From contig JALVUY010000143.1 in NCBI GenBank assembly GCA_027023665.1, positions 1-9,498 on the forward strand: a DNA stretch of 9,498 nt, written 5' to 3'. The position numbers and the translations under genes were made by a program. How positions within the stretch are numbered: the first letter of the stretch is position 1; each line of letters starts with the position of its first letter. The notes beneath the pieces were generated by a model. That model was not told the DNA's origin. It was given only the letters and a program-made list of their open reading frames with translations, and ran no database searches. Below are positions 1,233 to 8,525 of the stretch, piece by piece. This stretch comes from Methanocaldococcaceae archaeon (GTDB lineage: Archaea; AGJL01; Methanococci; Methanococcales; Methanocaldococcaceae).

Positions 1233-2157
1233 TTATAATTCCTTACTTTTTAATATTTCTATTATTGCGTCATCTACTGATTTCATAGATTTTCCAATTT
1301 TTCCAATGTTTTTAATGCATTCCTCAAAGTTTTTTCCAACTAGTAGGTTGAATATATAGTAGTTAAAGAAGATAAAGTAATTGATTTAATTAGTTTTTCT
1401 TCATCTTTATTGTTAATTTCATCGTAAGCAATTATTGGTAATGTAGATACTAAACCCATATTTCCACTACCAGCAATAGCCATAGCTGGTTTACTAATAC
1501 CAATCATTCTATTATAAACACCTGAAACTGTTTTTTTACCATAACATTTAAAACATCATCATTTATATTTAAATTTATAAAATCTTCTGGAACTTCAGGA
1601 ATTGAGAGGTTATTATTTATATTTATTGTTTCTTTTATCAAATTAATTACATCTTTTGGAATGTCATCTAAATAATCTATAAAGTCTTTGAGAGTTAATT
1701 TTTTGTAAGCCTCTTTCAAAGTTTTAGGAATGCATTTTCCAGAATGACTACCCTTAGTTTCACTCTCATAAGTTTTATCCGCCTCAATATATACTTTACA
1801 ATAAACTTCAGAATCTATAACTTCAATTTTCAATTTATCTTTTATAAATTCTTCTAATTCTTCATCATATTTTATATCCTTAAATATTTCTAAACCATTT
1901 TCTTTATTTCCTAACAAACCACCAACAACTGCTGGAAGTATCCCAAATTTTCCAGTATTTGGAACTCCTACTGAATATGCATTTTTAAAAGTTCCTTTAT
2001 CTAAAATTATTTTAATTATTTTAATCTCTTTTATTGAATATACATCATCTGGCTTAGCCTTAGCAACTGTATAGCCAATTAATCCCACCTCAGTGCAACC
2101 TAATGCCTTAACAATCTCTTTCTTTAAAATTTCAGTAATTAATTCATTTTTTTCCAT
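1233..2157 (-). pseudogene. cdsB: L-cysteine desulfidase, frameshifted and internally deleted
   Basis: The intact enzyme (UPF0597/serine dehydratase alpha-like family, MJ1025 type) uses a [4Fe-4S] cluster to break L-cysteine into pyruvate, ammonia and sulfide. The start is ATG at 2157, with AGGTGA (2163-2168) 5 nt upstream. An N-terminal piece runs to a stop at 1504 and includes ALGCTEVGLIGY, whose Cys21 is the expected first cluster ligand. At the A7 run (1531-1537) one base is missing relative to the expected frame. Shifting frame restores TVSGVYNRMIG, then KPAMAIAGSGNMGL and LPIIAYDE, down to a TAG at 1340. A third frame then gives VGKNFEECIKNIGKIGK and the natural end at 1233. The three pieces total about 308 codons against roughly 390 in the family. 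The missing segment of about 80 codons should hold the other two cluster cysteines. It is the second gene after thiC and is almost certainly non-functional. Confidence 0.88.
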
Positions 2158-2162
2158 AAAAT

Positions 2163-2168
2163 TCACCT
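2163..2168 (-). promoter_or_regulatory. RBS of cdsB, overlapping thiC stop
   Basis: On the minus strand AGGTGA sits 5 nt before the ATG at 2157 and includes the thiC TGA stop (2165-2163). It favours the start at 2157 over the upstream in-frame start at 2199, which lies inside thiC and has no such motif in the right place. The overlap indicates translational coupling of thiC and cdsB. Confidence 0.75.
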
Positions 2169-3440
2169 TAAAAATTTCTCGACCATCAATAAGGCACAAT
2201 AGTCACCACAAATTGAGCACGCTCTTTTTTCTTTTGAAGGAATCTCTTCTCTCATTTTTTTTGCTTTTTCTTTATCTATTGCCAACTCATACTGCTTCTC
2301 CCAATCGTGGTTTTTTCTTGCATAAGCCATCTCTTTCTCTTTTTCCCACGCCAATTTATTACCTTTGGCAATATCTGCCGCCTGAGCCGCTATTTTAGTA
2401 GCTATAACTCCCTCTTTAACATCCTCTACTGTTGGTAGCCTTAAATGCTCGCTTGGAGTTACATAGCAAAGGAAGTCAGCCCCATAGTAACCTGCTAACG
2501 CTCCTCCAATTGCGGCTGTTATATGATCGTAGCCGGGAGCTATATCTGTAACTACTGGACCCAAAACATAGAATGGAGCATTTTTGCATAAACTCTTTTG
2601 TAATTTAATGTTAGTTTCAATATAGTTTAAAGGAATATGTCCTGGCCCTTCAACCATACATTGAACTCCTTTTTCTCTACATCTTTCTACTAATTCTCCT
2701 AATATTATAAGTTCTTCAATTTGAGCCCTGTCTGTATTATCTAATAAACATCCCGGTCTCATTCCATCTCCCAAACTTATGGTTACATCATACTCCTTTA
2801 AAATCTCTAAGAGATAGTCAAAGTTTTTATACAGTGGATTTTCTTCGTTGTGATATAATATGTATGCTGTTAAAAACGCTCCTCCTCTACTAACTACTCC
2901 CAAAACTCTACCACTTTTTTTTAATCTTTCAACAGATTGTTTAGTTATTCCACAATGTAGTGTCATAAAATCTACGCCTTCCTTTGCCTGTTTTTCAATA
3001 ACATTGAATATCAAATCTTCATTCATATCTACAACTCTTCCATACTTTTCTCTTGCAATTTTTCCAGCCTCATAAATTGGAACTGTTCCTATTGGTATAT
3101 CAACAGCGTTCATAATTGCCTTCCTAATTTCCTCCAAATTACCTCCTGTACTTAAATCCATTATAGTATCTGCTCCATATTTTTCAGCAACTTTTGCCTT
3201 TTTTATTTCTAAATCAATATCTACAAAATCTGGAGAAGTTCCTATGTTTGCATTTACTTTAGTTCTCAAATATTTACCAATACCTACTGGCTCAGTATCT
3301 CTATTAACATTTTTTGGAATAACAACATAACCTTTAGCTATAAGATTTTTAAGTTTTTCAACATCAATTTTTTCTTTTTCAGATACAATTTTCATCTCCT
3401 CAGTGATAATTCCCTTTTTTGCATCGTCCATTTGAGTCAT
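2163..3440 (-). CDS. thiC: phosphomethylpyrimidine synthase ThiC
   Basis: This radical-SAM enzyme converts aminoimidazole ribotide into HMP phosphate, the pyrimidine precursor of thiamine. From ATG 3440 it is 425 residues, the usual size of the short archaeal and clostridial form. Recognised segments include DLSTGGN, the Cys/His-containing TLHCGITK, SRGGAF, ISLGDGMRPG, MVEGPGHIPLN and LGPVVTDIAPGYDHITAAIG. The C-terminal cluster motif is CSICGDYC at about 408-415, in CX2CX3C spacing rather than the CX2CX4C of longer bacterial enzymes; this variant occurs in short ThiCs. GGTGAT (3445-3450) lies 4 nt from ATG 3440, whereas the in-frame TTG at 3452 has no site. A second ATG at 3431 is possible but worse spaced. 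It is the first gene of an operon with the decayed cdsB. No thiamine-pyrophosphate riboswitch fits in the short leader. Confidence 0.97.
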   Translation of the reverse strand: MTQMDDAKKGIITEEMKIVSEKEKIDVEKLKNLIAKGYVVIPKNVNRDTEPVGIGKYLRTKVNANIGTSPDFVDIDLEIKKAKVAEKYGADTIMDLSTGGNLEEIRKAIMNAVDIPIGTVPIYEAGKIAREKYGRVVDMNEDLIFNVIEKQAKEGVDFMTLHCGITKQSVERLKKSGRVLGVVSRGGAFLTAYILYHNEENPLYKNFDYLLEILKEYDVTISLGDGMRPGCLLDNTDRAQIEELIILGELVERCREKGVQCMVEGPGHIPLNYIETNIKLQKSLCKNAPFYVLGPVVTDIAPGYDHITAAIGGALAGYYGADFLCYVTPSEHLRLPTVEDVKEGVIATKIAAQAADIAKGNKLAWEKEKEMAYARKNHDWEKQYELAIDKEKAKKMREEIPSKEKRACSICGDYCALLMVEKFLR

Positions 3441-3444
3441 AACT

Positions 3445-3450
3445 ATCACC
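3445..3450 (-). promoter_or_regulatory. RBS of thiC
   Basis: GGTGAT on the minus strand, 4 nt before ATG 3440. It decides the start against the TTG at 3452, which would overlap this site, and against ATG 3431, for which the spacing would be 13 nt. Confidence 0.7.
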
Positions 3451-3487
3451 AATTAAAAATTCTGTAAATGTCCTATTAAAACAAAAC

Positions 3488-7085: not shown

Positions 7086-7120
7086 TAATTAATTTTATGT
7101 TTGTAATTAATTTTTATTTG
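7086..7120. repeat. imperfect tandem duplication upstream of ksgA
   Basis: TAATTAATTTTATGTTTG (7086-7103) is followed directly by TAATTAATTTTTATTTG (7104-7120). The two units differ only by the ATG/TA tract in the middle. The first unit creates an in-frame ATG at 7097 that is not the real start. It may be a recent slippage duplication in the top6B-ksgA spacer. Confidence 0.5.
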
Positions 7121-7132
7121 AAACAAAAAATA

Positions 7133-7137
7133 AGTGA
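7133..7137 (+). promoter_or_regulatory. weak RBS of ksgA
   Basis: AGTGA lies 4 nt before ATG 7142, a one-base variant of GGTGA. The alternative in-frame ATG at 7097 has only A and T upstream. The chosen start also gives the conserved N-terminus [10 protein letters not shown]. Confidence 0.5.
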
Positions 7138-7141
7138 AACA

Positions 7142-7969
7142 ATGTTTAAGCCTAAGAAAAAATTAGGACAGTGTTTTTTAATAGATAAAAACTTTGTAAA
7201 TAAGGCAATAGAATCTGCAAATTTAACGAAAAATGATATTGTTTTAGAGATTGGTTTAGGAAAGGGGATTTTAACTGAAGAACTTGCTAAACATTCCAAA
7301 AAAGTTTATGTTATTGAAATTGACAAAAATTTAGAACCTTATGCTAAAAAATTAATGGAAAATTATGACAATGTTGAGATTATCTGGGGAGATGCTGTAA
7401 AATTTGATTTAAATAAATTGGATTTTAATAAGGTAGTTGCCAATCTTCCTTATCAAATCTCATCTCCAATAACTTTTAAACTGTTAAAGAGAGGTTTTGA
7501 TTTGGCAGTTTTGATGTATCAATATGAATTTGCAAAGAGAATGGTGGCAAAGGAAGGAACAAAAGATTATGGTAGATTAACAGTTGCAGTAAAAGCAAGA
7601 TCTGACCCAGAAATATTGTGTAAAGTTCCTCCAACTGCATTTAATCCAAAACCAAAGGTATTTTCTGCCTTAGTTAAAATAACTCCAAACATTGAGAAGA
7701 AGAAAAAAATAGAGAATGAAGAATTTTTTGATAATTTTTTAAGGGCAATATTTCAACATAGGAATAAATCAGTTAGGAAATCTTTAATTGATTCCTCTAA
7801 GGAATTAAATTATACTAAAGAAGAAATGAAAAAAATTTTAGATGAATTTGTGAAAAATAATCCAGATATAAAAATTTTAATGAATAAAAAGGTTTTTAAA
7901 CTTTCTGTTGATGAAATTGTCAATCTTTCAAATATACTTGTGTGCAAATTATATCCAAATAAAATATAA
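7142..7969 (+). CDS. ksgA: 16S rRNA (adenine-N6,N6)-dimethyltransferase KsgA/Dim1, altered C-terminus
   Basis: This enzyme transfers four methyl groups from SAM to two adjacent adenosines in the 3'-terminal helix of 16S rRNA during small-subunit maturation. The 275-residue protein shows [10 protein letters not shown] (from 6), the SAM-binding EIGLGKG (36-42), acidic VIEIDK (57-62), catalytic NLPY (101-104), FNPKPKV in the 160s-170s and [15 protein letters not shown] in the C-terminal helical domain. The last 11 residues after Asn264 ([11 protein letters not shown]) are encoded by an inserted inverted-repeat element. The displaced native end, KFYRFLSKG then TAG, can be read at 8047-8076. The catalytic domain is untouched, so activity is probably kept. 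It was probably once in a tight operon with coaD (5-nt gap). An in-frame start at 7097 was rejected for lack of a ribosome binding site. Confidence 0.95.
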
Positions 7970-8045
7970 ATAATGAAATTTGAATGCCCTTTTTCAAAGG
8001 CATTCATTAATACCTTATTTATTATAAACTCTTTGCACACAAGTA
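7935..8045. mobile_element. 111-bp MITE-like element with 14-bp TIRs and TA duplication
   Basis: The terminal inverted repeats are TACTTGTGTGCAAA (7935-7948) and its exact complement TTTGCACACAAGTA (8032-8045). TA flanks each end (7933-7934 and 8046-8047). The interior is a second inverted repeat: GAATGCC (7982-7988) pairs with GGCATTC (7999-8005), extended by a TTT/AAA stem around a TTC loop with one bulged C, and looser ATAAATAA/TTATTTAT pairing outside. There is no coding capacity. Excision with one TA gives CTTTCAAATAAATTC, which restores the ksgA frame into [13 protein letters not shown]. TA duplication is typical of Tc1/mariner and IS630-group transposition, so a non-autonomous derivative of such an element is the best inference. 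I do not recognise the TIR sequence and no autonomous partner is visible here. Confidence 0.8.
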
Positions 8046-8046
8046 T

Positions 8047-8076
8047 AAATTCTATAGATTTTTGTCCAAAGGTTAG
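8047..8076 (+). pseudogene. displaced native 3' end of ksgA
   Basis: Ten codons reading [13 protein letters not shown] follow the right end of the inserted element directly. They resemble the EFYRFL-containing C-terminus I recall for M. jannaschii KsgA. They are in frame with codon 264 once the 113 inserted bases (element plus duplicated TA) are removed. The present ksgA stops at 7969, so this segment is no longer translated as part of it. Confidence 0.75.
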
Positions 8077-8081
8077 ATAGT

Positions 8082-8525
8082 ATGAAAGTAGTTGTAGGAG
8101 GAACATTTGATATATTACATAAGGGGCATAAGGAACTGTTAAAGTTTGCCTCTTCATTGGGTAAATTAACCGTTGGAATAACAAGTGATAACTTTGCAAA
8201 AAAATATAAAACACATAAAATAAATGATTTAAAAACAAGAATTGAAAATTTAAAAAAATTTTTAGATAGTATAAATGCAGATTATGAAATTAAAGTTATA
8301 AATGACCCTTACGGCGATGCAATTACAGAGGATTATGATATTATTGTAGTAACTAAAGAAACTTTAAAAAATGCTGAAAAAATAAATGAAATTAGAAAAG
8401 TTAGAGGTTTAAAGCCCATAAAAATAATAGTTTTTAAACAAATTACTGCTGAAAATGGAAAACCAATATCTACGACAAGGATCAGAAAAGGAGAAATAGA
8501 TGAAAAGGGAAGATTAATAAAATAA
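8082..8525 (+). CDS. coaD: archaeal phosphopantetheine adenylyltransferase
   Basis: This cytosolic nucleotidyltransferase adenylylates 4'-phosphopantetheine with ATP to dephospho-CoA, the penultimate step of CoA synthesis. The 147-residue protein has the family signature in full: GGTFD at 6-10, the catalytic HxGH as HKGH at 13-16, and [12 protein letters not shown] at 129-140, equivalent to the ISSTRIR nucleotide-binding motif. It is of the archaeal/eukaryal PPAT type, not the bacterial CoaD lineage, though the same symbol is commonly used. The ribosome binding site is weak: AGGTTAG lies 5 nt before the ATG at 8082 and overlaps the old ksgA stop, which suggests former translational coupling. 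It now lies 112 nt after the ksgA stop because of the inserted element, so its expression may depend on readthrough or a new promoter. Confidence 0.95.

Follow-up and report, generated by a model that had tools for sequence, protein, structure and literature searches.

A gene-less palindromic element at a TA close to the ksgA stop in a Methanocaldococcaceae archaeon, most likely mobilized by an IS630-type transposase

Introduction

The 3' end of ksgA in a Methanocaldococcaceae archaeon contains a short, nearly palindromic sequence bounded on both sides by TA. Is this a mobile element that landed in a housekeeping gene, and, if so, which kind of enzyme moved it? Duplication of TA is a mark of Tc1/mariner- and IS630-type transposition. 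In the present study, we analyzed a window of 9,498 nucleotides (the whole stretch of DNA examined), which is contig C143 of an assembly (G000) with 266 contigs and a completeness of 81.8%, and compared it with genomes of the genus Methanocaldococcus and the order Methanococcales. An initial annotation, made from the letters of the window, had proposed a MITE-like element with a TA target-site duplication.

Results

The features of the locus are summarized in Table 1. The initial annotation described a 14-bp perfect terminal inverted repeat (16 bp with the flanking TA), a second hairpin nested inside and no ORF, and all three were recovered. In a pattern search, the TACTTGTGTGCAAA ends showed 0 mismatches over 14 bp, and 16 of 16 positions matched when the flanking TAs were included. 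The general repeat search of the window did not list this inverted-repeat pair; however, the pattern search and both folds described below do show it. The ORF list contained no ORF of at least 60 aa belonging to the element itself. It is crossed by the tail of ksgA and, in antisense, by an ORF of 142 codons.

Table 1. Coordinates of the element, its target site and the neighboring genes in the window
Feature	Positions	Strand	Basis
ksgA/rsmA ORF as now read (likely start at 7142)	7097..7969	+	TIGR00755, 282.6 bits
Predicted element-encoded KsgA tail and stop	7934..7969	+	KsgA ends KFYRFLSKG in G008 and KFYRFLSEG in G009
Left TA of the target-site duplication	7933..7934	.	One TA at the unoccupied sites of G008/SG1 and G009
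MITE without an ORF of its own, 111 bp	7935..8045	.	Copies elsewhere and empty sites
Left terminal inverted repeat, TACTTGTGTGCAAA	7935..7948	+	Pattern search
Inner hairpin, (T)GAATGCC...GGCATTC(A)	7981..8006	.	Retained in many copies whose ends differ
Right terminal inverted repeat, perfect counterpart of the left	8032..8045	-	Pattern search
Right TA of the target-site duplication	8046..8047	.	Empty-site comparison
Former ksgA end, now cut off downstream of the element	8048..8076	+	Sequence identity with L072/L093
Pantetheine-phosphate adenylyltransferase of the coaD type, next gene after ksgA	8082..8525	+	Family match

KsgA of the window and its counterpart in Methanocaldococcus sp. SG1 share 95% identity. 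Deletion of 111 bp plus one TA had been predicted to restore an empty site, CTTTCAAATAAATTC, and this sequence exists letter for letter in SG1 (locus L072) and G008 (L093), which are, by their coordinates, the same place in one genome. The corresponding site of G009 (L092) reads CTTTCAAATAAATTT and differs from the prediction in 1 base of 15. In G008/SG1 and G009, the flanks of the insertion point run on through a single TA, as expected from the TA duplication that had been attributed to transposition of the Tc1/mariner or IS630 type. The 200 nt starting at 8046 are 98.5% identical to the ksgA end and the following sequence in L072/L093. The in-frame extension of KsgA foreseen for the repaired gene, KFYRFLSKG, is the real end of the protein in G008, and the window has an 11-residue replacement from the element in its place. 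As read from the sequence, KsgA is predicted to have lost its last codons, to run 11 codons into the element and to stop there. The coding sequence of this tail begins with the A of the TA target. The gap between ksgA and coaD is 5 nt in SG1 versus 112 nt in the window.

Among 11 other genomes of the genus (G013 was left out, and G003 had no ksgA match), none carried the element at the end of ksgA or within 40 nt past its stop, and none encoded a KsgA ending in the 11-residue tail of the window. The proposed comparison with ksgA orthologues therefore returned empty sites in G008/SG1 and G009 and an unoccupied position in all 11. Three outcomes had been set beforehand as speaking against an insertion, namely, the same repeat at ksgA in relatives, no copies elsewhere and similar KsgA tails, and none of them occurred.

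The assembly contains four further full-length copies (on contigs C52, C54, C148 and C198) with similar ends and 71–74% identity to the element at ksgA; at this level of identity they do not look recent. TA is present on both sides of four of the five copies. The expectation of dispersed copies, each flanked by TA, thus held for the dispersal and for three of the four additional copies, whereas C198 has TA on one side only. Two of the five are embedded in an ORF end, another two follow a stop at 4 and 19 nt and the fifth lies in a wider gap; the four copies away from ksgA adjoin unrelated genes. The C148 copy occupies the final codons of a different ORF, which terminates at present in IVVCKTK followed by a stop, and exactly 110 bp and one TA are absent there in all three relatives compared (G008, G009 and G013). 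The C54 copy is also absent in three relatives; since their flanks have diverged, the junction is not exact and this site provides no clean empty site. Exact empty sites were consequently obtained at two of the three sites examined (ksgA and C148).

We then considered the distribution of the family. A BLAST search with the element of the window gave matches in 10 of 41 genomes, its own included; the match outside the genus (G026) spans 29 bases only and may be due to chance. With a covariance model, 11 of the 36 genomes of the order were positive; 10 of the 14 genus genomes are among them, and the remaining one, G024, belongs to another genus. The model was built from 46 copies and 7 of the 11 positive genomes supplied copies, leaving G006, G009, G011 and G024 as independent positives. 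The matches listed number at least 12 in G000, at least 71 in G012 and at least 80 each in G007 and G001, but both strands of near-palindromes are counted and these are not copy numbers. Pairs of a degenerate end pattern 86–125 bp apart, among the matches listed, number at least 19 in G012, at least 8 in G007, at least 2 each in G005 and G008 and at least 1 in G013. G007 is thus among the genomes in which copies are numerous.

Individual copies were collected by a search for end pairs at 80 loci, with a match of at least 12 of 16 required; 59 loci gave a pair, 3 were duplicates and 18 gave none. The ends matched at 14–16 of 16 positions in 56 of the 59 pairs, and the other three were wrong picks. 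L064 and L143 were left out as wrong picks and L004 was re-entered by hand, which resulted in a set of 57 copies of 96–124 bp. The element at ksgA is short, lacks a transposase ORF, has matched inverted ends, belongs to a dispersed family and has empty sites as counterparts in relatives, in agreement with the initial description of a small non-autonomous element of a methanogen. One element lies within another (G012:902498-902711). L114 of the more distant genus member G002 has, around 1501, TATAGTTGTGTGC at both ends and an unrelated inner palindrome; ends and insides of elements may accordingly be exchangeable between family members. Three copies of G024 (L190, L199 and L206) are very similar, with TAGTCAGTGACAAAA ends, and perhaps represent a branch that was active more recently. 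In G008, a copy (L047) likewise provides the end of an ORF, IVVCKMK. At L047:1314-1612, a copy breaks an ORF that, by reading, resembles a HepT-type toxin and follows a nucleotidyltransferase-like ORF. Longer relatives of 195–319 bp (L128, L129 and L131) contain extra palindromes, e.g., around CATAGGGCTTCGCCCTATTGG or CCATAGAGGCTACGCCCCTATTGG, which may be additional elements that landed in the original ones.

An IS630 element is present on contig C64 of G006 (L126:885-2039, 1155 bp with its TAs). Its transposase scored 145.7 bits with NF033545 (IS630; cut-off, 100) and 72.3 bits with PF13358 (cut-off, 28.6). A 69-codon frame with a helix-turn-helix match below the Pfam cut-off ends at 1180 and a 288-codon DDE frame opens at 1162, a layout that we take to resemble the frameshift arrangement known for IS630. 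The TA-flanked ends, TATAGTGTTTTTCAAAAT and TATAGTTCTTTTCAAAAT, are alike in 26 of their first 30 bases and belong to two end types of sister MITEs, GTGTTTTTC and GTTCTTTTC. The right end shares 26 consecutive identical bases with copy L139, 25 with L163 and 24 with L171. The insertion sequence with matching ends and a transposase that the initial annotation had anticipated was, therefore, obtained for sister copies but not for the TTGTGTGC ends of the window. Our searches found no autonomous element with ends of the latter type, and the transposase that moved the ksgA copy is, for this reason, one that we infer.

Two candidates for autonomous elements were rejected. The 5 kb between two TATAGTTCTTTTTAAA ends in G001 (L127) contain, by eye, glycosyltransferase-like and no transposase-like ORFs, and the pairing of these ends is attributed to chance. 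The longer relatives L128, L129 and L131 (G012 and G001; 195–319 bp) are too small to accommodate a transposase.

A selfish or domesticated palindromic repeat unlinked to IS630 may, alternatively, have been moved by another enzyme that leaves TA. In its favor, a clear IS630 gene was found in one genome of the genus only, against repeats in ten. DDE_3 (PF13358) matched in G006 alone among 14 genus genomes, and the window's own assembly, which is 81.8% complete, had no match; when the G006 protein served as a query, the only gain within the genus was a weak and partial match (71 residues; E 0.002) in G003. However, the G006 ends are those of sister repeats over up to 26 bases. Across the 36 genomes of the order, only G031 was added (three matches), and one of its genes, a second IS630 of the order (L210), also has TATAGT ends, with inverted repeats at 934-965 and 2018-2049 that begin TTATAGT. 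We regard a mover outside IS630 as improbable. Beyond the order, viral contigs provided 33 pattern stretches and no IS630 relatives. Relatives in plasmids comprised 60 records, each below 60% identity, the top-listed one being from Methanohalobium evestigatum (39%), and the DNA of the G006 element itself had no match in plasmids.

The suggestion that the near-palindrome could form a long hairpin in RNA or a cruciform in DNA is supported by predicted folds. The RNA of 7920-8060 is predicted to fold with -35.2 kcal/mol (z -7.1) and the DNA of 7935-8045 with a z of -7.5; in both cases, none of 200 shuffles was equally good. The inner stem is also a terminator-like site on the minus strand, with 1 found versus 0.1 in shuffles. 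Pairing was followed in 46 aligned copies; the remaining 11 of the set of 57 have irregular or different cores and were excluded. The two stems have standard pairs in 97.0% of 1179 cells, and a slide of the alignment by one column reduces pairing to 52–53%. Changes on both sides occur in 15 of 26 stem pairs, and such cells number 99 versus a shuffle mean of 28.4, counts that shared ancestry of the copies inflates. In the inner stem, 8 of 11 pairs have changed on both sides. Pairing of the inner stem was no condition of the copy search. Matching ends were such a condition (18 of the 80 loci without them were dropped), which biases the pair counts of the outer stem toward matched ends.

These data bear on whether the sequence is a conserved RNA structure of the ksgA-coaD operon (a regulatory leader, attenuator or small RNA) that is palindromic by chance. 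The strong fold, the covariation of both arms of two stems across the family and the terminator-like inner stem are consistent with such a structure. In contrast, it is absent at ksgA in all 11 other genus genomes examined, the four other copies in the assembly adjoin unrelated genes, and Rfam gave no match in the window at the gathering threshold. Furthermore, mismatched cells comprise 28 G-U and 18 A-C; since G-U is not clearly more common, neither strand is favored, unlike what an RNA requirement would entail. The empty sites largely refute a conserved RNA structure, and we consider it very improbable. A scarcely credible explanation is an artefact of a fragmented assembly (266 contigs, 81.8% complete), because the 200-nt flanks on both sides of the TA junction are 91.5–98.5% identical to L072, L092 and L093 and the nearest other copy in the assembly, at 74% identity, leaves no identical copy available for mis-joining.

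What, then, keeps the arms of the mobile element matched? Selection for matching ends would explain the paired change in the outer stem, and for the inner stem we tentatively prefer copying between arms, which may proceed through template switching in the hairpin or through rebirth of an element from one arm. Among 29 pairs of copies that are at least 85% alike in unpaired columns, 17 matched double changes stand against 71 one-sided or unmatched changes, which indicates that most recent changes are ordinary decay of one arm.

Discussion

We are highly confident that 7935-8045 belongs to a dispersed repeat family of Methanocaldococcus, carries no gene and entered ksgA at a TA close to its 3' end, most likely through the action in trans of an IS630 (Tc1/mariner-type) transposase. 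A transposase related to that of G006 and made elsewhere would have bound the ends of the element and joined it to the TA in ksgA, with duplication of the TA. ksgA would then read 11 codons into the element and stop, and the distance to coaD would grow from 5 to 112 nt beside a predicted hairpin. The insertion was presumably tolerated because only the extreme C terminus of KsgA changed. It may weaken translational coupling between ksgA and coaD or alter mRNA ends. No sign of a role that serves the host was noted, as judged by the absence in relatives and the lack of Rfam matches.

Palindromic repetitive elements of M. jannaschii, groups MJRE1-3, are reportedly the subject of Suyama, Lathe and Bork 2005 (FEBS Lett 579:5281). 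Judged by their description, these repeats are likely kin of the present family. According to the parts of the literature covered here, palindromic dispersed repeats of M. jannaschii, some of them fused into protein genes, were published in 2005 (PMC2229807, PMC2996958). They share with our family the host genus, palindromy, dispersal and fusion into genes. The IS630 partner, the empty sites with a single TA and the occurrence in other species come from the present analysis and not from that description. The view that the element is possibly undescribed is, therefore, doubtful as regards the repeats themselves. As for the link between Methanocaldococcus repeats and IS630, none was found in the part of the literature covered here, which is weak evidence of absence.

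Bacterial counterparts, as described in the portions of PMC2229807 consulted, are similar. RUP of Streptococcus pneumoniae, the partner of IS630-Spn1, is a 107-bp repeat with IS630-matching ends and TA sites, as here. The likeness is by description; RUP belongs to another domain of life and other hosts, and the ends here fall into several matched subtypes. Correia/NEMIS and other bacterial MITEs are also shorter than 200 bp and A+T-rich, have inverted ends with a terminal TA and fuse in frame to genes; the family compared with them, again by description, is archaeal.

We tentatively extend these results to a hypothesis that is possible, but that we presently doubt: the Methanocaldococcus palindromic repeats may be one IS630-driven MITE family, the arms of which evolve in concert by arm-to-arm copying of both end and inner-hairpin sequences and yield new matched end types that new transposases can adopt, while TTGTGTGC insertions at gene ends may repeatedly give (V/L)VCK...stop tails. 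With its exact empty sites, the present analysis connects palindromic repeats in an archaeal genus with a transposase family, and it reveals a series of matched end variants from a single genus. It also illustrates how a small element replaces the C terminus of a housekeeping protein and separates two closely spaced genes. The joint drift of the two arms allows ideas on the maintenance of palindromes to be tested.

We noted that two minus-strand ORFs elsewhere in the window (1504-2199 and 2163-3452) overlap by 37 nt. The longer one resembles, by eye, ThiC (phosphomethylpyrimidine synthase).
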